Shown piece after piece: positions 11,415-53,778 of a DNA stretch of 64,000 nucleotides. Positions within the stretch are counted from its first letter, which is position 1. Every line of letters begins with the position of its first letter. Source of the DNA: Clavelina lepadiformis (lineage: Eukaryota; Chordata; Ascidiacea; Aplousobranchia; Clavelinidae); assembly GCF_947623445.1 (NCBI RefSeq), contig NC_135244.1:20336860-20400859 (forward strand), read 5' to 3'. The notes under the pieces were generated by a model. It made no database searches. It was given only the letters and a program-made list of their open reading frames with translations, and was not told the origin of the DNA. Both the position numbers and the translations under genes were made by a program.

Positions 11415-14117
11415 TCACGTTACTGTTGATTCAATCTTTGAAACACCGTCTTCTGATTGACCTAACTGAGCGGAAAGGTTTCCTAACACATCCCTGCAAA
11501 AATACCTTGCATTGTATAAAGAGAATTTACAGGTCAATTAAATTTACAGATGCAGAATGTTTTATTGAAAAGCAACTTGATAAAAGTTACCTTTTAAGCC
11601 TCTGGCCCTGCGTGGAAGCAAATTTCCTCATTGCAACAAAAAGAAGTATCAAGCTTAGTGTAAAACCGCCATGAAAATACAAAAAGGACAGTGGTTCCGA
11701 TGCGATCAGTTGACCAACGGGAATAGGCAAAGTCATTTCGCCCAAGGCACCACCAATAATGAATGTACAGGCAGCTCTTAACAAAAAGCACGAAAAATTA
11801 TTTAAATAATACTTACAAGATAGTAAATATGCAAATAGTTGTAAAGTTAACTAAAGTTTTGAGACTGACACACAAAAAACTATTTTTCACCTGCCATTGA
11901 CAGTGATGTATCGTTCCGCCCATAAAAACGTTGTTCCGTAAATGCTAGTTCGAAAGAGACCTGTCATTGCAATGGCTATCCAAAATATCCACGGCGCGCC
12001 TTTCGAGTAGGTTGGAAGAATCATCATAATAATGGCTCCAACAGCGACACCCAGCAAGTCAACAGTTAATATTGCTAAAAATTACATCGAGATTAAAATT
12101 AAGCATAATTTATAAAAACAGCAAAGACTAATTTCATGAAAAACGTTTTTTATTCATTTATATATTTACCAAAATAGTACAGTAAGTTTGCTGTTAGAAA
12201 ACCATTTATTTTACCCTCTAAGATCAGTATAGTTTTAAAAGTACATGCAATAAATTTAAGGCTCACTGGTTGGGGAGAATTTCTTCGACATAAAAATAGC
12301 ACAGAATTGACCGACGACAATCGAAAAAAGTGAAAGTGCAATTAGATTTGAACCAATCTCTTTGGAATAACCGAGCCCAGACTTTGAACTTATACTAAAT
12401 GCGTAGAGAAAACTGGAAAAACTGGCTTCCATGGCAACATAAACAAAATAAAACGTGAAGAGAAATAATAACATTCCAAGCCTGTGATGAAAATAGATTT
12501 TTTAAATGGTTACGTTAATGTTGTTCTAAAAAGGCAATGTTTATGTAGAGTAGCTAATGACAGTTGACCATAGGTTTTATTTCAATTTTATCTTTTATTA
12601 ATTTAGGTGATAGTTTATTTTTTTTAATTATGACAAACGTTTTTAAAAATAATGAACTTTCACCTAAATCGTTTTCCTTCAAGTTTTATAGTGTTTTTCT
12701 GCTGAGATTCCGATAAGCTCAATGGCTTGCAAGTTCTTAACAATGCAATAAAAATTATAATAACGACGAGAAACACCGAAAATATGAAGTAGGGAATGCT
12801 GATAAACGGTATTCCAGAAGAATCTATGTACTTCAACGTGACATATGACTCTAGAAAAATGTTTCAATAAACAAATTCAACAATTTACACGGACAAAATT
12901 AGTAAACATAACTCTTACGAAATCTCACATATAATGCCGGAATTATATGCTGCCTAGCACCAGCAGATTTACCGTTAACTGAACTGTTGGCATGTTGGGC
13001 TTCATTGAGAAAAGGCTTGGCTACAAATGGAGTGATTGCAGAGCCGAGACAAAAGCAAAAATGAAGAAACTGCATCACTGGTTCCGCTTTTTTGCCCCAA
13101 AGGTAAAGGCAAAAGACATTTGCAACTAGAAGTTGAAAAATTTAAATAAACAATAAAAAATTGTGACATAAAAATAATAAAGTGTTGTTCATATTTCAGA
13201 ATGCTCTAACAATTGAAACAAAAATATTTCATTAAACTACTTTACATAGATAAACTTACTTGTTTCGTATGAGCCCATACCAAGGCGGGATAAGGCAATA
13301 GTGACATAAAACACAACCAGATTAAGAATCACAGGAGTTAGAACCAACCCAACTGTCATCACTGTCAAAGCACTTATGGTAAGAAAATGAATATCCACCT
13401 TCCTAAAAAAACAGCTTTTATTTTTATTTTGTTGTGTGCTTGTGGCCGATGTGTCATGTGTTAGCTACTTTATTGATATCTTTAAAAAATAAATAAACTT
13501 AACTAAGTATATTGAAAGTTATACTACTGTACGACAGAAATTGATTGAATGATTCTAAGTGATTATTGTAAAAGGTAACGTGTTGAAAGTTACGTCCCAG
13601 ATAATTTAAGTTTATAGTAGAGCACAACAGAAATAATAAAATACTGTACATAGCTTTATAACCTCTCCAAGAAACCCATAATAAGTGAGCCAGATAGATA
13701 ACCAGCCCCTCGAGCAATCAACACAGGAGAGACATCTTTTAACTCTATTGAGAGATTTTCGGCTAATGTAGGAAGAGCAAGGCCAAATATGCTGGATGCA
13801 AATCCCTAAGTTTAAATCAAAAAACAGAGTCATGCAAACATAAATATATCACATAATAGCTGACGTCTTATCCAAAGTCAATATTTTTTCTTAACTCAAA
13901 GCGATTCATTGATATGTTAATTGAAAACAAAGTGTGTTTAACAAACCATGCCAAAGAAGCCGCCTCCAAGTGCAATGCTCAAAAGATATCGCGCCAAATT
14001 CACAGAAGGATTACAACTAGATTTATCATTCTTGCTGGCTTGTGATTGGGCATTTTCAGCCAGTAATGTTCCAGTAACCTGTTTTTCAGTTTGCACACAA
14101 TCTAAGCTATCCGTCAT
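11415..14117 (-). CDS. MFS transporter, MFSD4B/NaGLT1-like, array copy 1
   Basis: Nine exons (minus): 14117-13947, 13805-13663, 13402-13260, 13125-12961, 12850-12664, 12481-12267, 12074-11891, 11776-11591, 11493-11415. Phases agree throughout, about 490 aa, stop TGA. Start MTDSLDCVQ; a GTG nine bases upstream is ignored. The predicted topology is a cytosolic N-tail, TM1 across the exon 1/2 junction, six TMs, a polar central loop in exon 5 and six more TMs. Family marks: FGLALPTLAENL, a GAGYLSGSLIMGFLER loop, ANVFCLYLWGKKAEPVMQFL, WAERYITVNGR and LPIPVG. MFSD4B-type proteins are plasma-membrane sodium-linked glucose carriers, but the substrate here is unproven. Among the six copies this one is divergent: IIMMILPTY in TM9, a shorter extracellular exon 4 and a C-tail lacking the NNP motif. 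Introns are short. Confidence 0.9.
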
Positions 14118-16646
14118 CTTACGCACCTACAATCATCTGGCCAACTGTAATACAACTTATTACATATAACATAATACCTTAAAATAAATCAATGATATAA
14201 TGCAAGAAAGCTGAATCAGATTAACTTCAGGTATGGTGTAAAATCATCAACTTGGTATGGAAAACTGCAAAATCATACCGTATCACCCTGGAATGGAAAT
14301 TGAGCGCGATAGGCAAAGTACAAAAACATGTGCAAATGTACAAGTCACATGTTTAAGAAAACAATGCAAATATAGTTGAGAACTTTAAACTAAAAGTAAC
14401 TTTAGTAAAACTTAAAGCTAAAAAATGTAAGTAAAAACATAAAAATCACACCAAACTGTCTTAAACACCGTGTTTCAACACAACAGGCCATTACTCTGAA
14501 ACAGACAACTTTATAAATACATTAGAATAGAGAAATCATGCAACGTTGCTGTGGTGTTAAAATGAGAACAAAAGACAACTCAAATGTATAAATAGATTAC
14601 TATTCCTTAGCATTAGCACACACATTCCAGATAGAGTAAGAACATCAACAATCAAATTACGCACAATTACCAGTAAAAGTAATTGATTTTGGAAAAACCA
14701 GGAAATGCAATTTATACGGTTTTAGTAAGCTTAACAAGTAATGAGTTAGTATTTCAGTGAAAGAACATCTGAGAAGTAGCATTAGTACACAAAACTTGTA
14801 ACGGTTTACAAACACCAACAAAAATAACTGCGTATGAAATGTAAGGTTAGGTATTAAAATAATATCAATCAATATCATCATATCACAATCTCCACCTTTA
14901 GAGCAGTGATTCTGCAGTATACATAAACTTTTGTTTATGAACATACAACAAACTCATAAAATCTTTCAATGTGCAGTCTTTTCCAATAAAATGTAATCAA
15001 TGTTTTTAAACCAAATTTTAACCTAAGGTAAGCCTTAGAATAGATATAGTATTTCTTGAAAAATTGCTCCTTCAAGTCCTAACTTGTAAAATCTTAAGCA
15101 ATTCCGGCAAAAAAAACAACCATAAAAGCTATCATTTTTTCCAAATATTATCAAATATCAAACTACATTAAACACTAGAAATCTAGTAATAATAGTAATA
15201 ATTAAGTAATAATAGTAATAAGTAATAATAATTATTAAGTAATAATAATAATTAATTAATAGTAATAATAATGAAATAATAATAGGAATAGTAATAGCAG
15301 TAATAATTTTACATAATAACTAGTGGAATAGAAAGTGAATGAAAATAAAGTTAAGATAGCAGTACTGTATTACTCAGTACTGTATTACCCTACACCTTAC
15401 CTGTATATAGCCCTGTAGGTATTTTGCAGCAAAGTTAATGAATTAAAGACATCACTGCATGCGATTAGCACAGCAATTTATTTTTAAAAATCGGCAAAAA
15501 TTGCAATTGTGCAGCCAAAAGATTATTCGCAAAGAAATTTAAGCTCAGTATTTTGAAAATGACAGATAGGAACTTAACAAAACAAACAAAATATTTTGTA
15601 AATGTCCAATTTATAACTTAACGTATATACATCTTAATGTACAGGGTATATTATGAAAATATACCATTGTGTTTTGCATATATTATACAGTACCAGCATA
15701 TTTCGAGATTGGATCTCTGTCAAATGCAAAACTAAGACACAAAGGCTTTTCATAGAATCAAGAAGAAATATTTCCAGGCACCATAAATGCAACTGTGTAT
15801 TGCACAAAACAATTACAACAAATAACACATTGTGAGTGGACATAAAATACATTAAATTGTAAAACAGTAAAAGCTTGGCTTTCTATTCAGCAATAAACAA
15901 TTAAAAGCAATCAACAATTTATGCAGGTTACAATCAAAGACAGCTGTTAGCTTAATTGATTTGAGAGGTATTGCCTGTAGAACAGATAGTTGTCAAAACT
16001 GATTTTTGGAAAAGTTTGCACTAATATGCTAGATATTTTTTCAGAAATTTCCAAGTTTTTTTGTCGTATATAAGACTTGTATTGTTGTACATTTGTAAAG
16101 CTTTACAAGTATGTGTAAAATCCTTTCTTTATCTGATATAAAAATCATATAAAAATTAATGGCGGAATCTGAAAGAATAACAACAACATATACATGCTAT
16201 AACAAATTTTCAAACGAAACGAAATTACATATTTTCAGCTTATCACTGAGCACAATTCATGCGATGTGTTCGTGTATCTTAACAGCGATCGGTAAAAATT
16301 ATATAACTTGTGGGCAAAGTTTGCAACACAAAATGTGTAAAACAAAAAACCAGGTTAACAACATAAATTGTGTGAAGTATGGGAACATAATCTCACTGGT
16401 TTAAATTATTTCAAAAGCTTGTGTAATATGATCTTCAAAAATTTTTGTGTAAACAAATGCAATTTATTTAATCACTTCAACACGACAGAGAAATTAACTT
16501 GTGCAATAATTTATGATTAGATGCATATTGTCGTATATTAACGTATAAAGTTGTGCCAGAAAAATTAATTAAATCATTAGTAGTCACAGTGCAAGACAAA
16601 TTAAAAGGCAGAAATTAAAAAGCAAAATAAGAATTTCTTTCCTCGT
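14118..16646. other. Intergenic region upstream of transporter copy 1, downstream of copy 2
   Basis: About 2.5 kb between two same-strand paralogues. It includes an A/T-only microsatellite-like patch (15181-15310) and otherwise AT-rich sequence. Small ORFs on both strands have no recognisable domain. The promoter of copy 1 should lie at the left end of this stretch. Confidence 0.5.
15181..15310. repeat. (TAA)n/(TAGTAA)n low-complexity tract
   Basis: About 130 bases of imperfect TAATAATAGTAATAAT-type repeats broken by TTAAG and AATTAATTAA. This is an impure microsatellite with no coding potential. Confidence 0.85.
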
Positions 16647-19600
16647 TTAAACTCTGATATCAAGCATTTCGTCATCTTTGGAAGTCCCATTGTTTGCTTT
16701 GTTTTTGCTGAACAAAAATAATATGACTGTTCAAAACAATTTTATTAGCCATATGTAACAATGATGATCATCCAAATAAGCGAAAATGTTTTAATCAATA
16801 TAGACCAACTAAAATTAAAACATTAAACAAAAACATGACAAACTTTGAACTAATCCTTTTTTTTAATGAAAACTGCACTTACTCAGAGTGTCTTCGGCCT
16901 TTTGTGTGAGCAAACTTGACAGATATGATAAAGACAATCACCAAAGCAAATACATAACTACTGCTGAGATATACAAATGATAGCGGCATTTTCTCTATCA
17001 GCAAACTAATTGGGATTGAAAGAATCATTTCACCAAGGGATCCACCGATGATAAATATACTTGCCGCTCTAGATCAAAAGTTAATTGGTTAACAAACTTT
17101 GGGAGTTACATTTACTATACATAATACAAATATAAATAAAACTGTAAAAAATTTGATGTGTAAAATTAGTTATTTTCGCAGTATGTGTTGTATGTAATAT
17201 TGTTCATGAGAGCGCGGCACATAACATAACACAGCTCACCTTCCATTAACAGTAATATAGGATTCTGCCCACAAGAATGTTGTTGCATATATGCTTGTCC
17301 CGAACAAAGCAACAGCACCTACTGCAATCCATAACAGAACTGGTGTTGTTTGTGAATACAGTGGAAATAAAATCAAAGCCATAGCTCCAACTCCGAGACC
17401 AACAAAATCGACTGCCAAAATTTCTGGAAAAAATTCCAATGTCAGGATATTGAGATAACGTTTATTCCCTTTGAATAATTCCGCTTAGGGACAATAAGGC
17501 TTAGGGAATAACGTGAGTAGCATTACTTTTTAATCAGGCAACCTGGTTGTGGCATAAACTGATGTCAATTGACTCACAAATATAGCTAATCTATGCAAAT
17601 TATAAACAAACGATCTTTTACAATATATAGTAGACTTGGGTATTCAGTCTCAAAACTAGAAACAACTGCTATTCAACAAAACAATGCAGTAGCAATTTAA
17701 CGAAAGTGAAGTTGTATGAAATTCCAGGGCATGCTACAAACGTTTGTATAGAAAAGCTAAATAGACATATTAAAAATCTTATGTCACTGACTGCCTGGAG
17801 AAAACTTTTGTGACCAGAAGATGGCAAAAAATTGACTAGCAACGATGGTAAAGTGGAACATTGCGCTGAGATGTGTGGATACATCTCTGCTGTACGCAGG
17901 GCCTGGCGGCTCGCTTATACCGAATTTGTAAATGAAGAGAGAAAAGGAAACTTCCACTCCAACGTAAAGAAAATAGAAGAGAAACATGAGAAAGAGCATT
18001 CCACATCTGAAAAAAAATAACTTCAGTGAAAACAACGATAACAATGAACACTGCCTTTGACCAATACCAACAACAATAAACAAAATGATCGCTATCACAA
18101 TTTCAAAACCCTGCAATACAATCTAGAAGACAAGACAACTTGGATATTGAAATCAAACCACTGAGACCAAACCTGAAATGTGTTCCTTCCTGCTCAATTG
18201 TATTTTCTTGTTGCGATTCGTTCAAATCAATGGAAGTAAGGAAAGTTACAGCCAGCATAAATATCACAACCAATGCAACAAATGAAGCAATTACTAGATA
18301 AGGGACGCTCACTAATGGCACAGCACTGCCTTCAATCAAGGTGATATTTGGAATTGATGCAGACTCTAGAAGACAAACATTGCTAATTTTTACTTATCAC
18401 AAGTTGTTTTCTTTTGTGTCATATATTTTACGCAACGACAACAACTTATTGAATCACAAATTACTGACCAGTGTACATAGATAAGGAACCGTTCATGCCA
18501 CTAGTGTTGTGAAAAACCTCATTCAGAAACGGTCTCGCTAAAAATGGGGTCATTGCGGATCCAAAGCAATAACAGAAGTGAAGAAATTGTAAAACCGGTT
18601 CGGCTTTCTTGCCCCACAGATACAAACACAAAACATTCCCAACTGCAATAAAATTGTAAAGTCTTGCAAGTTTTAACACACAACTTAAAAAATGAAAAAT
18701 AAACTAACAAAAAACTTATCACTCAACAGATTTAGATGATACAAAAACGATTGCATAAACTGCAAATCACTTTTTCGGAAAAGAAAGCAGACTTGATACA
18801 TGAGTTATGTACCTACCTGTCTCATAAGCTCCTAGCCCAATAGCTGCAATCGCAGTGCTGACATGAAGTGCAACAACATCAAGAATCAATGGAGTCATTA
18901 GCATTCCAACAGCAATGGCGAATAATGGTGATACAGACAAGACCATGAGGTTAAATTTGCTACAGGGATAAAAAATAACCTCATTAAGTTAACCAAATGT
19001 ATAACAGTGATACGTAAAACGTGTAACAGCGTTTTATAACAGTGACCCATCCTTTTTACAGCATGACTCCATCATATATTTTGACAAAGTACAACTGTTG
19101 AAAAATGAAACGTCTAGAATGCTTCAACATGTTTTTTACAAAACTGATATAAGTGAAGGATAATGATATCAGTTCAAGAATAAGCCCAGAAGTAAATAGT
19201 TTTTAACCACAAATTGGTCTTAATACCTTTCTAAAAGACCAATAAAAAGAGAACCAGCAAGATAGCCACCTCCTCTCACAACCACCAACATCGGCAGGTC
19301 ATTGATAGTTTTGTGCAAGTTTGCTGCCAGGGTGGGAAACGTCAGACCCAATATACTCAAACTGGACCCCTACACATGATAAATGACAGTAGAGACGGGT
19401 CTGCTTCATATGACAACGGATAATATGACCACTCACTTTATATGAACATTTTGGTGCAGTCCCGAATTTTGCCAAATAAAATTCTCTTTTTAACTTTACA
19501 ACCAGTTCTCAGATACCATGAGATATTACATTAATTATAACACAAGCCACTTTTCTAAGATATTTCCAAACACTACACTAAACTTTAAAATTCAAACTGA

Positions 19601-21256: not shown

Positions 21257-24200
21257 TCAACCATTTTTTTGATTCTGCATCTTTGAATTTCCTTGAATTT
21301 GTAAATTGTCCAACTCGGCTGGGTTGTCCCTGAAAAAAAATCCCGGCCCATAATTTGTTATTTGTTGTAAAAGTAATTTAAACTTAACTAGCTTGAAAGT
21401 TGGACTAAAATTTAATTTTATTATGTATTAAGCATCTGGCTTACAGTGAATGCTTTTCACTCTTCGTTTGAGCAAATTTAACCATCATCAAAAACAGCAG
21501 AATCAGAACAAAAGCATAACCACTGATGAAATATAAAAATGACAGCACATGCTTTTCGATTAGGAAACCAACAGGAATTGGTAAAACCATTTCACCAAGT
21601 GACCCACCAAACACGCTCACACTCATCGCTCTGGAAACAAAGTAAAAATAACAATGCAATCAATTTCTATTTGTAAATTAAAATTAAAACATCAAAAGCG
21701 ATATACAAAGTTTTTTCACCATGGGAATGATTTTTTAGTAATGCAAAAATGCAATCAAAATTTTATCTTGGCAGCTTTTTATTATCTTTTATTCATGGTA
21801 TCAAAATCCTAGTTTTTACACTAACTATGAGTTACATATTGACTGAACCTTACAGACAACATTTTGTCGACTTAACAGTAAATCTAAATTCACAGATTAC
21901 ATCATGCATTAGATATGATACAATTTAAACTATTTGTTCCAATAAAATTGCATTATAAAACAGAGAGCAATAACCAAAATAAAATGGTTACCCATTGGTG
22001 ATTGAACTGAACATTCCACAAATTGAAGTTCTACACATTCAATCATTGGAAACAAACCTGCCATCAAATGTTATGCGATGACTAGCCCATGAAAGCACGC
22101 ATGCATAAATGCTGGTTGAAGAAAAACCAACAAGTCCAACAGTTATCCAAAACAAAATTGGCGCAGTTTCAAAATACAAAGGATAAAAAAGTACAAGAAT
22201 GGCAGCAATTCCAACACCAAGTAAATCTGCTGCTAAAATTTCTGAAACAAAAATCGAGTATGTATATTAGGAATCTCCAATAACTAATGATCAACACATA
22301 AATAAATGGTCATGTATTTTTATGATATTCATTTTAATACACTTACTTTCTGGGGAGAACTTTTGTGACCAAAATATGGCCAAAAACTGACCAATTACAA
22401 CAGAGAAAAAAAAAACCACACTTAAATCAGCGGAAACATCTCTGCTGTATGCCAGGCCTGGACTTTCACTTATTCCAAACTTATAGAGGAATGTACTAAA
22501 AACAACTTCCATTCCAATAAATACAAAAAAGAACCAAAATAACAGAAACAGCACTCCATATCTGCAAAGGTTAGAGATTTGGTTAACTCTACCAAGGGCT
22601 GCACAGTGCACACTTTCAAAATTAAGGAGCAAAAATAAAACAACCTTCTATGTATAAATGGAAAGGAGAACTTCTATAACATCAAACCTGTATCTAGTTC
22701 CTTCAAATTCAGTTGTGTTTTTATCTTGTGACCCAGTCAAATTCCATGAAAAAAACAACTTCAGAATAATCAAAAATATTGTAACAGTTGTGAGAATACC
22801 AGCAATAACAAAGTAAGGCACACTGACAAACGGTAAATCAGTATTCTCTATGTAGGTAACGTTTTGGAATGATGTAACTGAAAAATAAAGAAAGGCTTAA
22901 CTGAACTAAATTTGGAAAACATTCACTGTTATAACACCTAATTATATAAATACATAAGAATGCTATCTTTGTTTTTCTGTCTTTGTAAAAGATTTGATGT
23001 CATAACCATTTAAATTCAAAACTGATAAAAAACATATTACAATAAATATCTACTAATAATATCACACTTCAGATTAAATATAATCACATATAAAGTATTT
23101 TTACTGTTTTCTGCAGCTGAAGAATTACTAGGAATGGTACTGTAGTAAAAAACTTCATTTAAAAAAGGTCTTGCAAAATATGGAGTAATCGCACATCCAA
23201 AACAAAACCAAAAATGAAGGAATTGTAAAACTGGTCCCGATTTCTTCCCCCATAAATATAAACACAAAACATTTGCCACTGTAAAATAAGAAGGTGAAAC
23301 AGGAATGTTAAACCGTAAAACAGGAATGAAATTAATGTCTTATTTTTAAATGGAATAAGAAATACAACATTGTACACAAAATAGAAGATCAGACATTACA
23401 TACAAAATAAATAAAATTACTGACACGATATGGGTGACACCAACTAACCTGTTTCAAAACCACCCATACCAAGTGAAGAAATAGCTGTACAAATGTAAAA
23501 TGAAGCTACGTTTAGTATCAGGGGTGTCAAGATCATGCCAAGAGCCATAGAAAGTAAAGAAACGGCAGCCAGAAAAAGGAAATTAACTTTACTGCAACAA
23601 AATAAAACGTCAAGTTTTTGTAATGAAGTACCGATATAATTGTATATATATATGTGCCAGGGATGGACAAACTTGTTCAATGAAAGACAAAAAAAACTAC
23701 AAACACCAGCGAGCCGCAAAATCAGTAGTGTCAATAGACATACGGTAAACGATGCATGGATAACGAACGATAATGGATATTGCTATTCAGCTAGAAGAGA
23801 CACAAAATACATGTCGGCGAGCCGCAGTTTGTCCACTTTTGATATATGCTCTATATAGATATTATATATCTACACTAATATTTACAATGACATGTAGCTG
23901 TGATGTCAAAATAATGGCGGGGCAATTGAAAAATGCCAGGTGGGCGAGCTTTGAATTGAAACGTACCTGCATATTACATGTGTTACTTTAAGACAGGCAT
24001 GTGCAACCTTTTTCACTGGAGGGTCAAATACAAAATTTTGAATCACATCGCGGGCCACATGAATTTTTTCAAAAAAAAATTAGTATCGTTTTCCTATGAA
24101 AGTAGTTTATGTAGTCAAGAAACAGATTTCATGCAGTCCACGACACACGTGTGTGCGACAGTTTGTTGAAAAACTGTGAATAATTGTTGATGGAAGATGA

Positions 24201-35058: not shown

Positions 35059-38000
35059 ATGAAGGACTTTCTAAAAAAAGATGATTTTGCCAAAAAAGAG
35101 GTTTCAAAAAATCTTCTTGGGGAAGATTCTACAGCAAAACAGGATGCAACAACGGATGATTCTAAACGTGAAGCTTTATCCGATTTTCCTCGTTATTTGT
35201 GGAGTGTGGCCCTTGGTGCTGGTTTTTTTGGAATGGTAAGTGATCCACTACATAAAAGTAGGCTATGTATGTTGCTCACTAAAATCAAATTTTCAAAACA
35301 AAAGTAAGCTAAGTTATTCATGTAGCTTGTAGTAACATTTAGTTAGAACTGTTCACTTTTCTTTTTTGGTTTATATCTGGTATATACTTAAAGTTTGAAT
35401 GCATCACTCAAGAATTATATTGAGCTTAGGATACTGTCACAAATTTTTTAAGGGTTTAACTTTGGCAATCTTGGGCCTTGCACTTCCTACACTGGCAGCA
35501 AACTTAAACCTGACCATCGATGATCTCTCTTTGGTGCTTATTGCCAGAGGTGGTGGTTATATTGTTGGTTCATTTATTGCCGGAATTCTTGAAAGGTGAT
35601 ACTTAACATCAGAGACGGCACCACTGGTGAAATACAGAAATTTATTTCTGCCAAAAGTTTGTTAATCCATTCTGATTAGATTCATCGGGGCGATGGCAAT
35701 AGTTTTCAAATTTTTTTCAAAAAGTGTAGAATTACAAGTTGTTGAATTAATTGGAAACAATTATGGTGCAATGATGTGATTTCATTGCCATGATAAAGTT
35801 AACCCCAATGGGTTTATGAAATGTTGGCAGAAATAAAATTCTTTATTTCTCTTCTGATGCTATTATGCCTGGTGGCAACAATAGTATTTTTAAGGTGATA
35901 CTTAAGTTTCGTTTTGTGGCAGTGCTGTTCATTATAAATTGTCACATTGATAATAATTAATCAGGTTCTATGCAAAAGTCAGATGTTGTACTAAAGTATT
36001 CTCAGCAGAACATACATTTAAAATCTAAGCAGTTTGTAAAGTTTGAAGGTTTGTCGACAGTAGTGCCAAAACCACTGATCTTTAAAAACAGTCTAAAAAA
36101 TCACTACCATTGAAAATTGTTCCGATATTAACCAATTTAAGCAAATTTTCTAGTAGCTGAGATACAGATAGAGACCATGACTTCATTTTTACTTAAAACT
36201 TCTTGCTAATAAGATGTAGATAATGGTTTTGTACATCCACATCAATTTGAATAACTAAAAATATATTTAAACAAAGTTTTGTGTGAAATAATTTTTAAGA
36301 AAATCATTTCAACCAAGATATTTACAAGACGTCATAAGCTAAAGGCGAGGACACCTCATCCATAATCGATATACTAAATATGTATTTTTGATACCGAAGT
36401 GTGTATTTTTGCAGTAAATTTGATTTCCATATCTTGGCTGCTCTTTCCCTGCTTGTGATGGGTATTGGCGTAGTTTTGACACCAGTTATACTAAATGTAA
36501 CTTCATTTTACATTTGTACATCTCTTTCTTCGCTTGGCATGGGTGGTTATGAAACAGGTACGTTTGGTTCATGCAAGTTTATTATGGATTTTCATGATTT
36601 TATAGTTATAGCGTTATATAGTATTATACTTTCTATTTATCAACTAACACAAAAATAGTTACGAATTTTATTATATTTTCTTTGTGAATTGTATTTTACA
36701 GTGGCAAACGTTTTATGCCTGTATTTATGGGGAAAAAAATCGGAACCTGTTCTACAATTCCTTCATTTTTGGTTTTGTTTTGGCTCGGCTATGACTCCAT
36801 TTTTGTCAAAATCATTTTTAAACCAAGTGGTTCATAATGCTAGTCATTCTATTAGTATTAATTCTTCAGCTACAGCAACCAGTATGTGTTAATTACAATT
36901 TTTTTTTTGTGTATTCTGTATGGTCTATATATATTTGTGAAAGTATAGTATATACACTTACATGATACATGTATATATTGGTGTATACGGTTTAGTATGA
37001 CTGGACATAATAAGTCAAAATATAAAAACAGTTATGTCTGCAAAATTGTATACATGTGTTAGATATAAAACATATACATCAGCAAAGTTTCAAATTTGAG
37101 TGCTAAGCATTGCTGTTTATTTCAAACTTTTCAACATTTTTCTTCCAGTGGCATCATCCCCAAACATTACCTACATAGAGAATACTACTGTTCCTTTGGT
37201 CAGCGTGCCTTACTTTATTATTGCTGGATTTTTAACGCTTGTTATTATATCCTTGATTTTATTGAAGTTTTTTGCTTCACTTGATTCAACTGAGTCACAA
37301 GATGAAAATACAATTGAACAAGAAGGAACTCGTTATAGGTTTGATTTGGTTGAAGTTACACTTTATCAGAAGAAATATTGAGTTTTTCAACCGCTTTTGA
37401 TATTGAAAAAATGCTTTTGCAAAGTTGACTAATTTTTAAAATATTTCAGATATGGAATGCTCATTCTCTTATTCTGGTTGTTTTTCTTTATGGCGGGCTT
37501 TCAAGTTACGATTTTCACATTCCTCTATAAGTTTGGAATAACTGAAAGTCCCGGCCTGGCTTACAGCAGAGATGTTTCTGCAGATTTAAATGCAATGTTT
37601 TTCATCACCGTTGTAGTTGGTCAATTTTTGGCCATATTTTGGTCACAAAAGTTTTCCCCAGCAAGTAAGTAATTTATCTGCAACTAAACCCAACACATTT
37701 ATCAAGGCAGCTTTTTAACCATATGTCTGATATATCAAACAGGCAAAATGTTAATGCTGTGGTAACTGATGGAGTTTTTCCCAGGTGTGGCTGTAGTCTC
37801 ACATTTTTTTGTTTTTACCATGTAAGTTTACGATTACTATTTATCCATTAACATCTTCTTATTTTTCTAGAAATTTTAACGGCAGATTTCATTGGAGTTG
37901 GAATTGGCTCCGTTCTACTTTTGCTTTACCCACTCTATTTCGAAGCTGCGCCGATTTTATTTTGGATAACTATTGGACTTATTGGTTTTTCTGCAACAAG

Positions 38001-38695
38001 CGTTTATGCATGCATATTTTTATGGGCGAATCGTTACATAACTATAAACGGCAGGTTTGTATAAATTGCATTGGGGAAACAGCCATGGGGCAGAAACTAA
38101 ATTTGTAGTTGAGTCATCTATGCTGATTGTGATTTTTCACAACTTTAACAGATTAAAAAACCCTTTGTGAGTGATCAACTCCATGTGGTTTTTCACTGGT
38201 CAACAAAATTATCAAGATTTAGCAACTACTTATAAATTTAATGCAAAATGCATTAAAAAAAGAGCTACTATAATGTTTTTAATATTGTGATGACGTTATA
38301 ATCGATAAGTTTTTATTGCTTTATTATTATAATAATAATTATTATTTTTCAGTGCTGCAGCCGTGTTCATATTTGGTGTTGCAGTTGGTGAAATGGTCTT
38401 ACCAATTCCTGTTGGTTTCCTAATCAATGAGCATGTGTTGTCATTTTTATATTTCACCAGTGGCTACTCGTTCACTTTGATTCTTATCTTTCTGCTAACA
38501 GTGAAATTTGCTCACACAAAGGGTCAAAGGCTTTCACAGTAAGTAAAATGTTTCCTACAGGTTTAAATGTGATTTCATTGCTTGGCAACAGTTCACTGAT
38601 GAAGAGTTTTATGTAGAAACAATCCGGTTGAAGAGGACAAGTTGAAAGCTGAGGAGTATTTGGCGGATCAGAAAATCCCAGAAACAGTAGTCTAA
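35059..38695 (+). CDS. MFS transporter, MFSD4B/NaGLT1-like, array copy 4 (inverted member)
   Basis: Nine exons (plus): 35059-35235, 35453-35595, 36415-36557, 36702-36881, 37149-37338, 37450-37664, 37871-38054, 38353-38538, 38617-38695 (TAA). Phases 0,2,1,1,2,1,2,2; about 498 aa. N-tail MKDFLKKDDFAKKEVSKNLL, TM1 across exons 1/2, GLALPTLAANL, ARGGGYIVGSFIAGILER, ANVLCLYLWGKKSEPVLQFL. The extracellular exon-4 loop carries several Asn-X-Ser/Thr sequons, the central cytosolic loop is STESQDENTIEQEGTRYR, and TM10 ends WANRYITINGR. TM11 has LPIPVGFLI and the C-tail has NNPVEEDKLKAEEYL. This is the only plus-strand member. Exons and introns are closest to copy 5. Intron 2 holds a 285-bp insertion flanked by a 14-bp direct repeat that includes the 5' splice site. 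Substrate unproven; the family suggests sodium-coupled glucose uptake. Confidence 0.93.
35607..35891. mobile_element. MITE-like insertion next to exon 2 donor of transporter copy 4
   Basis: 285 bp bounded by the 14-base direct repeat AAGGTGATACTTAA (35593-35606 and 35892-35905). The left repeat includes the last exon bases and the GT of the exon 2 donor. The interior folds back imperfectly: ATTTATTTCTGCCAA near 35641 pairs with TTGGCAGAAATAAAAT near 35824, and further inward GGCAATAG/CATTGCCAT also pair. The family is not identified; a 14-bp duplication is long for hAT, so part of the match may be chance. Confidence 0.55.
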
Positions 38696-43189: not shown

Positions 43190-46100
43190 TCAGGCAGCTG
43201 TTTCGACCCTATTTGGAGTTGTCAATTTTTCTTCGATCTGCAACTTGTCTAGGTTGGCGGGATTGTTTCTGCACAAAATTTTGCATCGATAAACTGTTCT
43301 TAAACAAACAATTTACATTTCAAATAACATGAAACATTTTACTTACTGCGAAAGCCTTTGGTCTTTTGTGTGAGCAAACTTGACTGCAACCAGAAACACC
43401 AGAATTAATGCAAATGTATAACCACTGGCAAAATATATAAATGACATCACATGGTCTTCGATTAGGAGACCAACAGGAATTGGTAAGACCCTTTCGCCTA
43501 TGGCACCACCAATCATGAACACAGATGCAGCACTGAAAAATAATAATTATTATAATAATAAAACAATAAAAATCATAGTAAAAAACAGTAATTGTGAAAA
43601 ATAATGAAGTTTATAACTTTTTTTAAGCGCTTTAATATCTTATCAAAAGAGTTATGTGCTTCAAACATACTTGAGTAATGACAGATAGTTACTCAGAGAC
43701 CATGATGGACAGTTTTATGTCAAAATGAAATGCTTTTCTAAAGTCATAAAATTCCATTCACTAAAAACCCTGGCGCATTGTAAAATAATAAAAAGTATAG
43801 AACAAAAACATTTAAAAATCGTATTTTTCGATCTGTAATAGGAAGGATTCAAAATGAACAGGCTTACTTAGATCACAGTCATAGCAAATACAGCTTTTAG
43901 TATGCACAGCAATCATATAAATGGAAACCGGTCAAATTGAAATTCATCATCCAAGTATAAATGAACCAATCAATATTGATTTATGTTGCAACTCAAGCCA
44001 ACTAAGAGAACGTTTACTTGCTGAAGGTATTTTAGACAAATAAGAAATTTTTTTAGAAAAATGCAATAAAAATGAAACAAAAATGCCACTTGCACATATG
44101 GTTACAACATTTAACACATAAATCAGTAAACTAGCTTATCACAGGTGCACATTGCACAATCTATTTATTGAAATGCTATCCCAAGATTTTTTTGCCATTC
44201 TACTTTATACATACCTGCCGCTAATAGTTATGTAATGATTAGCCCATAAAAATAAGCATCCATAAACGCTTGTTACAGATACACCAATAAGTCCGGTAGT
44301 GATCCAAAATATTACAGGAGCAGTTTTGAAATACAGTGGATAAAAATGTACAAGAATGGCACCAATCTCAACACCAAGGAAATTTGCCGTTAAAATTTCT
44401 GAAACAGGAAAATTTTAATACTTACATAATAATGGTAGCTCTGCGTTGTAAAAAGATTAAAAATCAAAGAGTATGACAAACAACACCCTTCAAAAACTTC
44501 ATGTAATTTTAGAATAACTTTTCATATACTGTAATAAATATTCAACATATACAATTAGTGTTAGAGTAGGCCTACCAATAAAGTTGCCTTGATAACTGTG
44601 TTTGATTTAGTAGAGTAGCAGGTAAAACACTTAGGCTACTTCCAAGGGAGAACTTTCGTGACCAAAATATGGCAAAAAATTGACCAATTACAACGCTGAA
44701 AAGGAAAACTGCACTTAAATCTGCAGAAACATCTCTGCTGTATGCCAGGCCGGGAGTTTCACTTATTCCAAATTTATAGAGGAATGTGAACATCACAACT
44801 TCAGAGCCCACCAACAGGAAAAATAACAAGAACATCAGTATGAGCATTACATATCTGAAATATTTTACAAATTCGACAACTTTGCAAAATGCTTTATTTT
44901 TCAAGATCAAAGGTGGTTGAAAAACTCAATTTTTCTTCAGACAATGTATAACTTCAACCAAATCAAACCTGTAACGAGTTCCTTCTTGTTCAATTGTATT
45001 TTCATCTTGTGACTCAGTTGAATCAAGTGAAGCAAAAAACTTCAATATCAGCAGAGATGAAATAACAAGCGTTAGAAATCCAGCAATAACAAAGTAAGGC
45101 ACGCTGACTAAAGGAACAGTAGTATTCTCTATGTAGGTAATGTTTTGGAATGATGCCACTGGAAGTAAAATGTTGATATAAACAGTAATAAACGCATTCC
45201 TTGCTTACTGCTAGAACCTAAATCTTTGTTAATTTATTTCATGTTCAATATACATTCTTGAATACATAACAACTTGTACTTACTATGGGAAATCAAATCA
45301 AAACATGCACAATGTAACACCGATATACACCTACTTAACATATGTTCACAACATTTTCTGATATCTTGGCAGACACATCCATGATCTACTTTTATTTACA
45401 GTCAAAAAAACAAAGCCAATGAAACAAAGACAGTTTTAAACTGTTTTTATATATACTTGTTATGGTATGGAACCATGTGCTATACATTTACTTACAACAA
45501 TACATGATAATACAATATAACAATTCAAATGTTACGTACTACTTGTTGTAGCTGAACCATTAACAGAATGATTAGTGTAGTGAAACACCTTATTCAAAAA
45601 AGGTTTTGATAAAAATGGAGTCAGAGCCGAGCCAAAGCAAAACCAAAAATGAAGAAATTGTAGAACTGGTTCTGACTTTTTTCCCCACAAGTACAGGCAT
45701 AAAACATTTGCAACTGTAAAACAAATATCTGCAATAATTTTGCTTGCAATTTGATAAACACAAAGTGCCATATCACTCTACAAAATACATGTAAATAGTA
45801 AGATAATTACAAAATCATATGAAGACATTTCATAAAATCTGCTCTACTAAAACTTACCGGTTTCATAACCACCCATACCGAATGCAGAAAGACCAATAAA
45901 AATGTAAAATGAGGCCACATTGAGTATTAGTGGTGTTAAAACTACACCAATACTCATCACAAGCACAAAAATAGTAGCCAACAAATGGAAATTAACTTTA
46001 CTGCAAAAAAAACAATTCTGAGATTTTATAAATGCATAAATTTATAGTTTATTTTTTTGCGTGTTTTAAATTATTTTTAAAAACCTTCATTTGACATTAC

Positions 46101-46661
46101 AAACAATGTATTTTCAGCTGCTAATATCATTTGAGGCAAAAGAACTAGCGAAAATTTCTCTTTGGTTTTAAAGTTCATTTTCAGCATAGCTGCAAAGAAT
46201 GAATTATAAAAAACATTTTTCACCTTTCAAGAATTCCAGCAATAAATGAACCACTAACATAACCACCACCTCTGGCAACAAGCACCAACGAAACATCATC
46301 AATAGTCTTATTCAAGTTTGACGCTAGGGTAGGAAGTGCAAGTCCCAAGATGGACATACAGGAACCCTTAAAATAGTTCCGTTATCCAAACCTCAAAAGA
46401 CAAATAGAACTTTGAAGCCCTGCTTGAAAATACAACGCATTATGCATTGAAATCACATAACGGTCAAGAAACATGAATACATACCACCCCAAAAAATCCT
46501 GCTGAAAGGGCTGCAGTCATCAAATAACGAGGAACATTTGATGAAACTTTAGATATGGAATCTTTTGTGCTATCATTGTGTTTCACTATTCCATCTCCTC
46601 CAAGAAGATTTTCAGAAACTTGCACCTCAGCAATATTATTTTCTTTCGGCATGTCTCGCAT
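43190..46661 (-). CDS. MFS transporter, MFSD4B/NaGLT1-like, array copy 5
   Basis: Nine exons (minus): 46661-46485, 46366-46224, 46000-45858, 45713-45540, 45158-44969, 44854-44640, 44398-44215, 43532-43347, 43268-43190 (TGA). About 496 aa. Start MRDMPKENNIAEVQVSENLL; an upstream in-frame ATG (46676) would add five residues but has no counterpart in copy 4. Exon 4 could end three bases earlier (45543), since two in-frame donors sit side by side. Family marks: GLALPTLASNL, ARGGGYVSGSFIAGILER, ANVLCLYLWGKKSEPVLQFL, the STESQDENTIEQEGTRYR central loop, WANHYITISGR, and NNPANLDKLQIEE in the C-tail. ERVLPIPVG replaces the EMVLPIPVG of copies 3 and 4. Intron 5 is about nine-tenths identical to that of copy 4, implying recent duplication or conversion. 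Confidence 0.93.
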
Positions 46662-46917
46662 AATTTTAGGCAACACAGCAATATTATAAATAAAGCGTTA
46701 AGCTAAATATATCAAATTACAGTGAAAGCTAAGATTGACGATATAATGTATGGTAGCACGTAGGCCACAGTATATATGTATACCGTATAGCCCATAGCCT
46801 ACATATATGTGTTATGGTAGTATGATATCAAAATCTTTGCCTTTCAAAAGACGGAAAGTCTGGCTCTTCTTTACTTTTCCACTCCTTAATACCGGTACCG
46901 CCTAAGTACCTATACTC

Positions 46918-47010
46918 AGTGGTGAGATTCAGCCGGTTTGCACCGGTACGTACGAACCGGTTCTTGGAATTTTAATGACCTAAGCGAACCGGTTGTTAAC
47001 AAGCGTATGT
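46918..47010 (+). repeat. One end of a hAT-type repeat
   Basis: Starts CAGTGGTGAGATTCAGCCGG and continues with repeated ACCGGTT/AACCGGTT boxes. This is a pattern seen at the ends of widespread animal hAT elements (CAGTGGTGGGATTCA...). The matching opposite end was not found nearby, so it is a fragment; the right boundary is arbitrary. Confidence 0.5.
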
Positions 47011-48650
47011 GTAGGACTATGTTTCACTTCGAGTACTGTATTACCGCGGCTAATAATGCTATTAATAGAACTAATATTTATTATAATAACGTTACAACTT
47101 ACAAACAAGCGTGTTTACAACGCATTGTGCAGTTACAATACAGTAGAACTCGCGTATAACCTCGTATAAAACGGTTCCATTCATCATTGCAAAGAAATCG
47201 ATTGGCGACACTACAATTGCAAAATAAATATTATAATGAATAATTTCACTTGCTAAACTCTTGCTTGTGGCAATCCAAACATCAATCTTTGATCTGTACA
47301 CTGTATATATCGGCCCCGGGTCAATATGGCATGCTGCTAGTGAGAGAACCGTATGTTAAAATGTTTGAATCCTTCCGCTGTCTATGCTCTCTATAGTGCT
47401 AAATGAGCTACTGCTAAAGGCTCCATATACACGTCCGGTCTCTGAAACTAAAAAACGTGTTAACCAGCAGGGTTTATGGACGGTTTTTTTTTTATAAACC
47501 AGGCAGGTAGGCCTACTGGATAACCTGGCATTCGAATAAGTCGATATTGACTACTTCTAGTACTTCACCGTAAGTAGGTGACGCAGTCCATAAAAAGATA
47601 TAGGCGGTTAGATTAAGACAAAAACAACGCAAAAAGTTGAATTTAGCTATTTTAGGTATTATTGAATTTTAGATTTAGGTTAACTAACTACAGTATATTG
47701 TAACATTTAAGTTAGGTTAACAAAAAACTGTCAAAAGTAGCTTTGAACGCACGATTTTTTTCTGGTGAGATAGTGGCAGCCTAATAAGTCATCACTCACG
47801 CACTCACCAGTCAAGCAAGTGTTTACACTCGCTGCTTTATTGATTGCGCAACGTTGTGCAATCAGCTGTTTTGGTTTTTGCACTGGTAGCAACGGTGCGC
47901 TAGAAAATGGCAGTAATGGTTTATGGCGAACAGCTGTTTACCTTAAATTCTGACAGATATTTTTTCACTTTATTCAAGTCGTTAATTGCTCACTTTGAAC
48001 GATTGGCCAAGCTTTCTTACCGTTGAGGTTAAGATACTTAAAATATGAACTACTGTACCTGAGTTTTCTTGGACCTCCTCGTTTCGTGTAGGTGACATCA
48101 TACTGTAACTGCAGGTGCTTCAGCCTTCAAGTAAGCCTACTTCCTTCCGATTACGTGCTTTGCCTAACAATTCAAAACTGCAAGACAAACTTCACACAAG
48201 TGTTTTGATAACGAACAGCTAAGGATTTATAACTTTAAAGGTTTAATTTTTTTATAAACTAAGACTAACTTGTATCGCAGACTAGAAAATAGAGAAATGC
48301 CTCAAATCACTCTCAAGGAATTTAGCATGTAGATGAAATTCATAGTTAGCTAAAATATGTCAATAAAAATCCGAGAGAGGATTTTGTTTTCACAAAAAAT
48401 GACTAACCCTTGACATAAATTAAATACGGCGCCAAATGAAAATGCCTTCCAAGATCCAGCAACAAAATAATTACGACGCCGATGAATGAATCATACGAGT
48501 TATTGCTGGCCATCGTCGATATCATGCATAAAAATTTACAGCTTGTACTCTACATGACACTAAAATAGCGTACTATGCTGTTGTTGCAGAAGTACCAAAT
48601 TCTCCCAGCGAAAATAACCATGACTATTATTGTTGCTAACTTAGTATAAT

Positions 48651-48861
48651 AAAAAACAATATATAATAATTTGGCACTCTTGAGGGTTAACTTTATATTT
48701 TTCGACACGAACTTTCGCAAGCATAAGCTTGATTCTTCTGCAGCTGTGAAAACATTGTCACAGTACACCTGAAGAAGCAACCTTATGCTTGCGAAAGCTC
48801 GTGTCGAAAAATATAACGTCAACCTTCAGAGTGTCAAACTACATCCTGTTTCCTATTTTAG
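48651..48861. mobile_element. Fold-back MITE, both arms present
   Basis: The left arm (TTGGCACTCTTGAGGGTTAA, then TTTTTCGACACGAACTTTCG) and right arm (CGAAAGCTCGTGTCGAAAAA, then TCAACCTTCAGAGTGTCAAA) are inverted copies about 85 bases long. They meet around a short centre (GAAAACATTGTCACAG). Solo arms of the same family lie at 2541-2660 and 63617-63720. No ORF; the superfamily is not determinable because target duplications are unclear. Confidence 0.8.
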
Positions 48862-49971
48862 GCTACTTTAAAATCTGGTTGACACGGTGCAAACAACATC
48901 AAGTTTGTTTGTAACTTGTGAGTTTTACTACAAAGGAAAAGCTCTATCAACCTTGAAGGACCTTCTTCGTTGAAGAACCTTCAACGTTTCTTAATTTAGC
49001 AATTGAACTGTAAAAACAAACTAACTCGCCGCGTAATAGTAAAAGCGTAAGTGCCACTTGTCACCGTTTAACCAAAACGTTAACGCACTGCATATCACCA
49101 AAACTAAAATATGAGCTTGAAACAGAAAAACTAAGAGACAGGCAAGTGAGCAGGAAAAACATTGCATGTTAAATTAAAAAGGAGGCCACGCTTAGTTCGA
49201 AATTATAAACCCACCCAACATGTTTCAGCTTCACGAATGAGTGAATGATTGAACATAGAATAGTCAAGTGCGTCAACAACAGACACCCAATCGCCATAAT
49301 TTAACGAAGACATCTACATCTGTTTATCGTCCTGCACAATAGATCACATGAATTTGTAGTTATATGATATCACATGAATGCAAACGATCACCTAACAATC
49401 GGCAACAAAACAAATAGTGCAATGAAGAATAAGAAATGCGTACACGACCCTAATAAATTCATTTGCTACCCACCTTGAAAAAAATTATTGTATGTACGAG
49501 TATGAGGTTGATAATTACAACACATGTTTAAGGAAAACTTTACACAACTATCATAAGCAAGAATATAAAATATGTCGAAAACAACATATTAGAAAAATTG
49601 CAACAACAATTAGAAAAATATTTTGTAGTACACAAGTTCTGGCACAAAATAAAACAACTTGAAACAAAGTGGCATGTTATAAATGGATATTTTCAATACA
49701 ATATATCTTTGCACTGCATTGCAATTCAACCATGTGCAGTGCGCATGCTACAGTGAAACAGCAACAGTTTAAAAGCACTGCATTAACAACACCACTATGC
49801 ATATTAAAGCAATATCATAAATCAACATTAATAATTTTATTTACATCAAATTAAAAAATAAAATCTGTGAGTGCATTTGTACGTAGTACGTGTGATAAAA
49901 GTGATTGCAAAAATGGAGTATGTTTTGTAAAAAATTCCATCACAGACAACACTGAACAAATCAGCATTTCT

Positions 49972-52900
49972 TCACACTTTTGCTTGTTCCAGAGGATCCA
50001 GCTTTGGGTTGCTTTGAGTCTGTAGTTTGTCCAGTTCAGTTGGGTTGTTTCTGGAAAAAATTGTTTAGCATTGCCATATTGCGAAGTACGATAATTTGGT
50101 TAAACTGAAATAAAAAACCTTTGTTTATTCTTATGCATTTAAGTAGATAACTTACTTTAAAGACCTTTCACCTTTTGTCTGAGCGAACTTTAGTGTCACA
50201 ACATACATCAGTATTAAAGCAAATACATAACCACAATGGAAATATAACAAAGACAACACATGATCCTCGATTAGAAGGCCTACAGGTATTGTTAGCACCA
50301 TTTCGCCAAGCGAGCCACCAAAAATGAATACAGCAGCAGCACTAAAAGAATAAAAAAGTGATTTCTACTTCTGATCATCACATCACATATTCGATGTGTT
50401 TATACCATACAACAGTCATCAGCTAATTTGAACATTTAAAAAATTTTAAATTAATATTTTATTTTAAAAAGTTTTAAATATCTTTGAGCAATTACAGTCT
50501 GCAACTCACTGTTTTGAAGTAATTAAAAACTTCATATCTACATAGTTACCTTAAAAAGCTAATATGAAAACTAATTCGAGCACATTAACTACTTTGTAAC
50601 AGTTGCAATGTCGATGTTACTGCAAGTTTATAGAAACGAGGACAAAAGGTTAACAAAAAGTCAAACCCTTTTCACAGCTGGTTTGTCACAAATATATAAT
50701 AGCGACAAAGACAAACAACTATATAAAATACGAGCAGTTGGGTAGTTCAAGGCTACATATTTTGTTTCTATCTCCATGTTAATTCATTGTTATGCTAACA
50801 AACCTGCCATTTATGGTTATGTAGCGATTTGCCCATAAGAACATGCTTGCGTAAATGCTGGTTTGAGAAAAGCCTAAAACTGCGACAGCTATCCAGATCA
50901 AGGTTGGAACAGCTTCAGAATATAATGGATAGAATAGCATAGTGATGGCGCTGACTCCAACTCCAAGAAAATCTGCTGCTAAAATTTCTAAACAAGAGTT
51001 GAAAAATTAAGACAAATATCACAATGAAAGAAAAACAAAAAATCACTATAAAAATTAAACATTCACAAGAGCTTCACATAATCTGCAAAACATTTTTTAT
51101 TTATATATCATGGCAAAGTTTTTGTGGAATTTTTGTTAATGCTGCAAAACTCACTTTCTGGGGAAAATTTTTGCGACCAAAATATGGCAAAAAATTGACC
51201 AATAAGAACCGAGAAGAACAAAACTGCATTTAAATCAGAAGCTACATCTCTGGTGTATGCTGGACCCGGTTTTTCACTTATTGCAAATTTATAAAGGAAA
51301 GTGGCAAGCACAACTTGCCCACCCATGAGGAAGAAATATATCAAAAAAATGAGAAACAGCATCGTGTATCTGTCGAAATGTTTTCGAAAATAGATAACTC
51401 CATAAAATGTTGTCTCAACAAACAAAATCACAATATAAGCTTTATTTTATTCACAAAACTTGATCAAATGTTTACTTTGTTAACATTATATGGTTGGTGG
51501 AAAGAAATATCGATAAGTTTTTTACGCATATAAACTACATAATGCATCAACCTCAACCTAACCGGTAAGAAGTTTCTTCCTGTTCAATTGTATGTTCATG
51601 TTTGGTGTTGGTCAAATTCAGTAAAAAAAACAGCTTCAATGGCAGCAAAAATATTATAACGGTCATCAGGAAGCCAGCAATAACAAAATAAGGCACACTG
51701 ACTAGTGGGAGTGTGGTATCTTCTATGAAAGTAATATTTTGGAATGATGTAACTGAAAGAAAAGTATTGAGAAAAGCTTAAATAACTTAAATGGAATGTA
51801 TTCTATTGCTAAAGGTTATGCTGTTTTTACATAATAAGTGTGTGTACGACATTGTACCATAATGCATAGGCTATGCAGTGCATATATGATACACATATTG
51901 CATAATTCGTACAGAATTATTCTTTACATCATATATGTTTAAAAGTAAAATCAAGATCCTAAATATATAGATATTGACCATACTAAGAATAATACATAAC
52001 AGTAAGCAAAAGTTAGAGAAATAGAATGGTACATACTGGTTACAGCAGATGAAGAATTGTTAGGAAGACTACTGTTGTGAAACACTTCATTTAAAAATGG
52101 TTTTGCCAAAAACGGAGTAATTGCATGACCAAAACAAAACCAAAAGTGAAGGAATTGTAAAACTGGTTCCGATTTCTTCCCCCATAAATATAAACACAAA
52201 ACATTTGCCACTGTAAAATTAATATCTGGAATTAGTTTTGCATTTCAAGCAAGAAGAATAACGGAAAGTAGGATAAAATAAAGTACTGGTAAGTATATTT
52301 TTACCAACTAGAAACAATTGGACATAGGCAATGCCTATAGAATCTGAATGACTCAAACGTACCTGTTTCAACACCACCCATGCCAATTGAAGAGACGGCT
52401 GTGCAAATGTAAAATGATGCCACATTTAGTATCATCGGTGTTAAAATCATACCAATGGCCATCAAAAGCAAAGAGATTGTTGTCAAATAATAGAAGTCAA
52501 CTTTACTGCAAAATATAATTTTCTTTACTTTAAACATCATTGTTAGCTAATAACTAATATAGGCTATACAAATATAAATATTTTGTTATTATTTTTGTGA
52601 GATTATTTTTCTTGTTAATAAATGTACTTTGGTCCAAAATTGTTTTAGGTTTAATAAGCAACAATTGTATAAGCCAGCGTACTTAGACCATCAGCAAAAG
52701 AAGAAACTTGGATGGTAAAGATGCCATCAATCATTTATTCAGCATAAAGGAAAGATATAAGCCAAGCAGTTTGTATAAGAGGAAATTTTTATTAAGATGA
52801 TCATCTACTTTAGTTTTTTCAGAATAAATCATAGGATATAAGTGCCTCTGTCATATCATACCAATCAGGACATGCATAAAGAACAGTCAGTTCTGTCACA

Positions 52901-53778
52901 TTGGTGAAAGCTACGAAGCCTTTACTTTTACAAATTTATACAATGCACACAAAATTTAAATTGAGTTTATGAAGCAAAGTCTGGATTTATAATCCAAAGA
53001 TTTTATAACATATTTCAAATGAGATTTATTAAGTTGCTTTTACTGCTTGTACATTCAGATATAGTAAACCTCTGATAACAATTGGTAATATCAGTTTCGA
53101 CAATAAAACTATTTAAAATCTTGATTTGCGATTGAAAGTAATAACTTCTGAATAAACCATAAAACAAAACTTATATATATCACCAGTGCTGTAACCAAGT
53201 CATTTTTTTAGGATTCGAGTCAAGTCAAGTCATTGACTCGAGTCATTACAACACTGTATATCACCTTTCAAGAGCTCCAGCAATAAATGAACCGCTAACA
53301 TAACCACCACCTCTGACAATAAGCACCAGTGAGAGATCATTGATAGTTTTGTGCAAGTTTTCCGCCAGTGTAGGAAGTGCAAGTCCCAATATCATTATAC
53401 TGGCACCCTTGAAAGAAACTTAAGCTCTTAAGCTAATATATAGCTCCAAAGCCCTGCTTGAAATTTCAAACACTCCACAAAAATAGAGATGAAAAATACC
53501 GTTATTCAAATCACAGAATTCCTTGAAATAACTTAGCATGGCTTAAAAGTATATATAACATATTCAACACACAAAATTGAACATTATCAAACATGAATTC
53601 TCACCAAACCCAGAAAACCTGCAGCAAGTGCTGCGCTCAACATATAGCGATGAAAATCAGATGAATCTCCAAGTTTGGAATTATCTTTTGTTTGATCATG
53701 TTTCGATATTTCTTCCTCAATAAACTTCTCTGAAACCTCGTCGTCGGAAACACTGTGCTTTTTTGGCGAATCTTGCAT
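49972..53778 (-). CDS. MFS transporter, MFSD4B/NaGLT1-like, array copy 6
   Basis: Nine exons (minus): 53778-53605, 53407-53265, 52505-52363, 52210-52037, 51752-51563, 51369-51155, 50987-50804, 50341-50156, 50050-49972 (TGA). About 495 aa with the array's standard phases. Start MQDSPKKHSVSDDEVSEKF. Marks: GLALPTLAENL, VRGGGYVSGSFIAGALER (V for A before RGGG), ANVLCLYLWGKKSEPVLQFL, an NNSS sequon in the extracellular loop and WANRYITINGR. LTIPVGLLI stands in TM11 and NNPTELDKLQTQ in the C-tail. The central loop is altered to NTKHEHTIEQEETSYR, and exon 6 has SEKPGPAYTRDVASDL where others have SESPGLAYSRDVSADL. Exon 4 is nearly identical in DNA to copy 3 over about 90 bases. A 73-bp hAT MITE sits directly after the exon 2 donor. 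Confidence 0.93.
53184..53256. mobile_element. 73-bp hAT-type MITE abutting the exon 2 splice donor of transporter copy 6
   Basis: Ends are CAGTGCTGTAA and TTACAACACTG (inverted, one mismatch). Perfect 8-bp target duplications TATATCAC lie at 53176-53183 and 53257-53264. On the gene's strand this octamer is GTGATATA, the first eight bases of intron 2, so the duplication copied the 5' splice site. The interior is made of GAGTCAAGTCAAGTCATTGA-type repeats. Confidence 0.85.

Follow-up and report, generated by a model that had tools for sequence, protein, structure and literature searches.

Does the run of six similar transporter genes on chromosome 5 of the tunicate Clavelina lepadiformis record an active expansion of NaGLT1-like transporters, as an earlier note on this DNA proposed, or is the array older, and to which transporter family do its genes belong? 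We analyzed a window of 64,000 nt (the whole stretch of DNA under study, chromosome 5, 20336860-20400859; positions below are those of the window unless a chromosome is named), together with the remainder of the genome. The reading that we prefer, with a probability of about 0.6, is a functional-looking tandem array of MFSD4/NaGLT1-like transporters that arose by old duplications, is held under purifying selection and would, as predicted here, carry out cation-coupled uptake.

Six Intact Nine-Exon Genes on Chromosome 5

Six intact nine-exon transporter genes lie at positions 11415-53778 of the window. Their models were assembled from conserved exon matches and splice-site enumeration, then joined and verified; the choice among models was guided by resemblance to copy E, and the starts and splice sites are predictions. 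Copy A (14117-11415, minus strand, 504 aa), the most divergent of the six, has its nine exons at 14117-13947, 13805-13663, 13402-13260, 13125-12919, 12850-12664, 12481-12267, 12074-11891, 11776-11591 and 11493-11415. Copy B (19830-16647, minus strand, 490 aa) comprises 19830-19657, 19369-19227, 18959-18817, 18642-18469, 18365-18173, 18006-17792, 17423-17240, 17068-16883 and 16707-16647, and copy C (25805-21257, minus strand, 492 aa) comprises 25805-25635, 25024-24882, 23591-23449, 23278-23105, 22877-22688, 22561-22347, 22241-22058, 21630-21445 and 21329-21257. Copy D (35059-38695, plus strand, 498 aa) runs in the opposite orientation to the other five, on which the earlier note was silent; its exons are 35059-35235, 35453-35595, 36415-36557, 36702-36881, 37149-37338, 37450-37664, 37871-38054, 38353-38538 and 38617-38695. 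The exons of copy E (46661-43190, minus strand, 496 aa) are 46661-46485, 46366-46224, 46000-45858, 45713-45540, 45158-44969, 44854-44640, 44398-44215, 43532-43347 and 43268-43190, and those of copy F (53778-49972, minus strand, 495 aa) are 53778-53605, 53407-53265, 52505-52363, 52210-52037, 51752-51563, 51369-51155, 50987-50804, 50341-50156 and 50050-49972.

All 48 introns, which are 68-1290 nt long, have GT-AG borders, and the six spliced models, which predict proteins of 490-504 aa, contain 0 internal stops. Exons 2, 3, 6, 7 and 8 measure 143, 143, 215, 184 and 186 nt in every copy, and the cumulative exon phases (0,2,1,1,2,1,2,2) are the same in all six. In the remaining exons the length changes in whole codons, being, in the order A-F, 171/174/171/177/177/174 nt for exon 1, 207/174/174/180/174/174 nt for exon 4, 187/193/190/190/190/190 nt for exon 5 and 79/61/73/79/79/79 nt for exon 9. 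These models reproduce the description given by the earlier note: six intact copies with open frames, five exons of fixed length, shared phases, and whole-codon differences elsewhere. Copies E and F have an alternative exon-4 acceptor AG 15 nt upstream of the selected site, which would add five codons. When the six proteins were searched against the window with tblastn, 238 matches fell within the six spans and a single one, at chance level (E 0.71), fell beyond them, so no seventh copy or relic is seen in the window; the genes are also intact and constrained, and the description of the locus as something other than a graveyard stands.

The left neighbour of the array is a WD40 ORF at 5458-5874, whose best PDB match is WDR1. 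Retrotransposon-like ORFs occupy 57185-60207: on the plus strand a 300-aa ORF weakly matches a zinc finger, and on the minus strand some pieces weakly match reverse transcriptase and zf-RVT, all of these Pfam matches lying below the cut-offs. A 386-aa open frame at 61729-62889 (plus strand), in which several hydrophobic stretches are visible by eye, has no match in Pfam at E 0.1. A dispersed repeat of ~150 bp occurs at 2480-2657, 48648-48910 and 63572-63730, its copies being for the most part 81-84% alike, with 94% in one piece of 68 bp, and an adjacent pair of ~200 bp units at 3191-3381 and 3393-3596 shares 74% identity. Scans of the window for tRNAs and, at gathering scores, for Rfam families each returned 0 matches.

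Likeness to MFSD4/NaGLT1-Type Transporters

Pfam MFS_1 is matched by all six copies at E <= 1 (best 4e-13), copy A scoring 49.4 bits against a cut-off of 33.4, which places the genes in the MFS. All six likewise match one NCBIfam model, for aromatic acid/H+ symport (best E 9.2e-9), with copy A at 17.3 bits against a cut-off of 418.55; this common model is neither fucP nor gluP. Among solved structures the best match of copy F is FucP (E 5e-5), followed by SV2B (E 2.8e-4). FucP was not found when copies A, B, C, D and E were searched singly in the PDB, a profile of the six sequences returned nothing there at E <= 10, and no vertebrate MFSD4A/B member came up in any of these PDB searches. In a plasmid collection, the single match of copy F at E <= 0.01 (E 2e-13) is an MFS transporter from Chloroflexota that shares 25.7% identity over 74%, and scans with the six-copy alignment gave 83 pattern matches in a genome contig collection and 165 in a viral contig collection, none of them related. 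The closest prokaryote proteins, for which we use the name bacterial MFSD4-like, include QRN84520.1, which is 23-25% identical over ~395 positions and, unlike the six, has a shorter TM5-TM6 stretch. Judged from these comparisons of sequence, the six are distantly related to the bacterial MFSD4-like proteins and to FucP.

Collectively, the six have the look of MFS transporters akin to MFSD4/NaGLT1 (SLC60-like), a label given by likeness. The NaGLT1/MFSD4-like appearance described in the earlier note is supported to this extent by the MFS_1 matches of all six copies, which do not separate MFSD4B from MFSD4A or from a third lineage. MFSD4B/NaGLT1 (SLC60A2) and MFSD4A (SLC60A1) are MFS proteins as well, likened to the six by description. 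MFSD4B is a Na+-dependent sugar (glucose, fructose) transporter according to PMC5648162 and PMC7358622, and a table in PMC5648162 assigns one MFSD4A and one MFSD4B to each of the six vertebrates tabulated, whereas the tunicate has a six-copy array. The SLC60 expansions in arachnids, which PMC7487162 discusses in terms of dietary sugar uptake, are similar in that the family in which the earlier note placed these genes grew within one lineage, but they occur in a different phylum, and the growth described here is a tandem array in a tunicate. A literature search, with most subscription journals outside its scope, found no paper on sodium-dependent glucose transporter 1 in Ciona and none joining MFSD4, tunicates and solute carriers; among the NaGLT1/MFSD4B matches listed, no title concerned tunicates, and nothing on this array was among the papers listed.

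Relatives in the Clavelina Genome and Their Introns

The genome searched comprises 209,060,895 bases in 95 contigs. With copy A as the query, only two matches lay outside the array, both on chromosome 2. The gene found there has 22-27% identity to the six, the value varying with the alignment, and when used as a query in turn it returned many more MFSD4-like loci. They include an array on chromosome 1 (5158001-5257000, or 5.16-5.25 Mb) with 12 loci (g01-g12; the count is based on one conserved exon, and several loci are partial), an outlying relative of that array on chromosome 7, two genes at 8.13-8.15 Mb of chromosome 1, one gene on chromosome 4 and one further gene on chromosome 7. Together with the six and the chromosome 2 gene, these 17 loci bring the genome to at least 24 related loci, at least 18 of them outside the window; the true number may be higher, as the search scores no more than its best candidates, and the loci outside the window, several of them partial, are known here as sequence loci and not as proven working genes. 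The chromosome 1 array looks younger, five sampled copies of its type being ~75-94% alike over long stretches. Chromosome 8 carries two further clusters of MFS genes with uninterrupted frames, four at 3115287-3127159 and three at 3642715-3650448, and one tested gene of these clusters matches sialin (E 5e-50).

In the chromosome 2 relative, intron 1 (phase 0) and intron 3 (phase 1) fall at the same places as in the six, intron 2 is ~10 codons off, introns 5-8 are absent and an extra intron lies inside the region of the six's exon 6, these positions having been read by eye from the alignment with intron 4 excluded. Introns were also examined in ten of the remaining 17 loci, a sample that includes six of the chromosome 1 array type. 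All ten keep the position of the intron 1 acceptor, and nine keep that of the intron 3 donor, the exception being k1, which was unreadable there. Since introns 1 and 3 are common and introns 5-8 are not, the architecture is partly family-wide and partly particular to the six. The "frozen" architecture of the earlier note thus holds within the six-copy clade, while its extension to the whole family is rejected on the evidence of the chromosome 2 gene.

Aligned with one another, the six show 24 gap columns, all of them within residues 2-31, 203-209 and 490-495 of copy E, which correspond to the N-terminus, a loop and the C-terminus and belong to exon 1, the exon 4/5 border region and exon 9. The loop at 203-209, which we place between helices five and six, carries at least one N-glycosylation sequon in every copy. 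Crude hydropathy gives 16 segments, several of which are pieces of one peak, and is compatible with about 12 helices; topology and localisation are given as predictions. An inherited gene structure and helix packing would together suffice for the fixed exon lengths: exons 2, 3, 6, 7 and 8 would encode packed membrane helices that do not tolerate indels, within a single structure passed on to all copies.

Age and Constraint of the Array

Pairwise protein identity among the six copies is 44.6-70.4%. The lowest NG86 dS is that of D and E (~0.48), with other pairs ranging up to saturation, and pairs that include A or B have a dS of at least 1.6 or are saturated. In the 13 of 15 pairs with finite dS, dN/dS is 0.16-0.40 (A/B and A/F are saturated). 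Aligned introns are mostly 42-65% identical between copies, a measure that is unreliable where ungapped introns differ in length, as with intron 5 of A (182 nt) and that of D (111 nt), which score 78%. A codon model covering 485 of 509 codon columns gave omega values of 0.250 and 0.244 in two estimates, and its lnL was -7810.8 vs. -8051.9 with omega=1 and kappa=2, a comparison that is not strictly nested, kappa being fixed; the model averages across sites and branches, so a single weakly constrained copy might stay hidden. With identities of 45-70% and an omega of ~0.25, the six copies are old and constrained. Because they are old by dS, the active expansion that the earlier note saw on chromosome 5 is rejected; the younger-looking array of the wider family sits on chromosome 1 instead. 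That most copies are silent or decaying, and open merely because too little time has elapsed, is highly improbable given dS values from 0.48 to saturation, the absence of stops, the 48 of 48 GT-AG introns and the tree-wide omega.

The six copies are monophyletic in the trees made. In the protein trees A branches first, then B, then C-F, and D pairs with E; the position of C vs. F is weakly supported and depends on the tree. Serial duplication in this order, with inversion of D, would produce the array, and purifying selection would retain the copies; the array itself is ordinary gene-family evolution. The 600 bp upstream of the six copies showed no blastn match at E <= 0.01 to one another and no 8-mer common to five of the six.

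Local Similarity Tracts

Exon 5, intron 5 and exon 6 of copy D (37149-37664, plus strand) are unusually like 45158-44640 of copy E, with identities of 93, 87 and 83%, respectively, as against 48-70% in the remaining introns of this pair; the introns 5 are 111 nt (D) and 114 nt (E) long. A permutation test of this run gave 0/2000 with all polymorphic codons and lost significance when restricted to silent sites, with p 0.174 among C-F and 0.106 once B was included. Similarly, the start of exon 4 in copy C (23219-23278, an approximate extent, minus strand) is unusually like that of copy F, with 15 shared silent sites in a run, for which permutation among C-F gave 0/2000 with all codons and with silent sites, and 0.0015 with silent sites when B was added. 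Several other copy pairs reach p 0.0035-0.04 in one test or another, and the p values are uncorrected for the number of pairs, so we regard the tracts as suggestive, and local gene conversion in both as possible. Tracts of this kind lend some weight to the view that concerted evolution maintains the array for dosage, with interchangeable copies, which we nevertheless consider quite unlikely, as the proteins are just 45-70% identical, their termini and loop and the introns of the genes have diverged, and the D/E tract loses significance on silent sites.

A Putative Coupling Site

In E. coli FucP, an L-fucose:H+ symporter, D46 is described as a putative H+ binding residue in PMC4882079, and PMC6167325 mentions a possible hydrogen bond between E135 and Y365. 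The positions of FucP E135, N139 and Y365 hold Glu, Asn and Tyr in all six copies, which thus have the TM4 Glu and TM10 Tyr of the FucP type, and homology to FucP is detectable with copy F. Unlike FucP, to which they are 17.7-21.1% identical, all six have Gly at the TM1 position of D46. This position is also Gly in the plasmid protein and in 18 of 18 bacterial loci, so the missing Asp is not special to the six. At the E135 site, where the six have Glu, Asp occupies the plasmid protein and 16 of the 18 bacterial loci (Asn in the other two) as well as five of the seven other Clavelina genes aligned, the remaining two, from the chromosome 1 array, having a hydrophobic residue; the motifs are, for example, GYLDA in h1 (Asp) and GYMLV in g10 (hydrophobic). 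In each of the six chromosome 1 array-type copies read, a hydrophobic residue replaces the TM4 Asp of related genes.

Under the preferred reading, the proteins would work by alternating access, coupling cations to the uptake of a small neutral solute for which a hexose is the likeliest candidate. The invariant TM4 Glu (E135 position), the Asn (N139 position) and the TM10 Tyr (Y365 position) would form the coupling site, with the Glu as the candidate coupling group. Given the Gly at the D46 site, coupling is probably not FucP-like proton symport; it may be driven by Na+, as is reported of rat NaGLT1, and a sugar as substrate is suggested by family resemblance.

Placement of the Six Genes

The same site bears on whether the six belong with the other Clavelina genes at all. 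They could instead form a separate, older MFS lineage without orthology to vertebrate NaGLT1/MFSD4B. The genes on chromosomes 2, 4, 7 and 1 would then be the true SLC60 members, and the six might carry something else, such as a polyol, an organic acid or a different sugar. In the best tree, built with 18 bacterial loci and 7 of 18 other Clavelina loci (six of those block-wise and partly read-through), the six stand apart from all other Clavelina genes used, which group together with support of 100/100, and FucP joins between the six and the group of bacterial and other Clavelina sequences (group support 73.5/93). In another tree, from which g04 and g05 were omitted for short coverage, the six, FucP and the Chloroflexota protein are set against the other Clavelina genes with support of 100. 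The intron set, which differs from that of the chromosome 2 gene, and Glu at a site predominantly occupied by Asp in the bacterial and other Clavelina sequences point the same way. Monophyly of all Clavelina genes, however, is not rejected (AU p = 0.232), and introns 1 and 3, common to the six and other Clavelina genes, argue for common animal ancestry. We therefore hold the separate lineage as a tentative alternative, and the MFSD4/NaGLT1-like array remains our preferred reading. More doubtful still is the proposal that the six represent an ancient branch of FucP/MFSD4-like transporters in animals, distinct from the Asp-bearing Clavelina genes and marked by the Glu/Asn/Tyr site and by Gly in place of the TM1 Asp; if it is true, the tunicate runs two parallel families with different coupling chemistry.

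Implications

To our knowledge, the substrates and coupling of NaGLT1/MFSD4-type transporters are poorly known. The at least 24 loci of Clavelina, with their Glu, Asp and hydrophobic variants of the putative coupling site, constitute a natural mutant series for substrate and ion coupling, and the presence in one genome of an old array on chromosome 5 and a younger-looking array on chromosome 1 adds to this test series.
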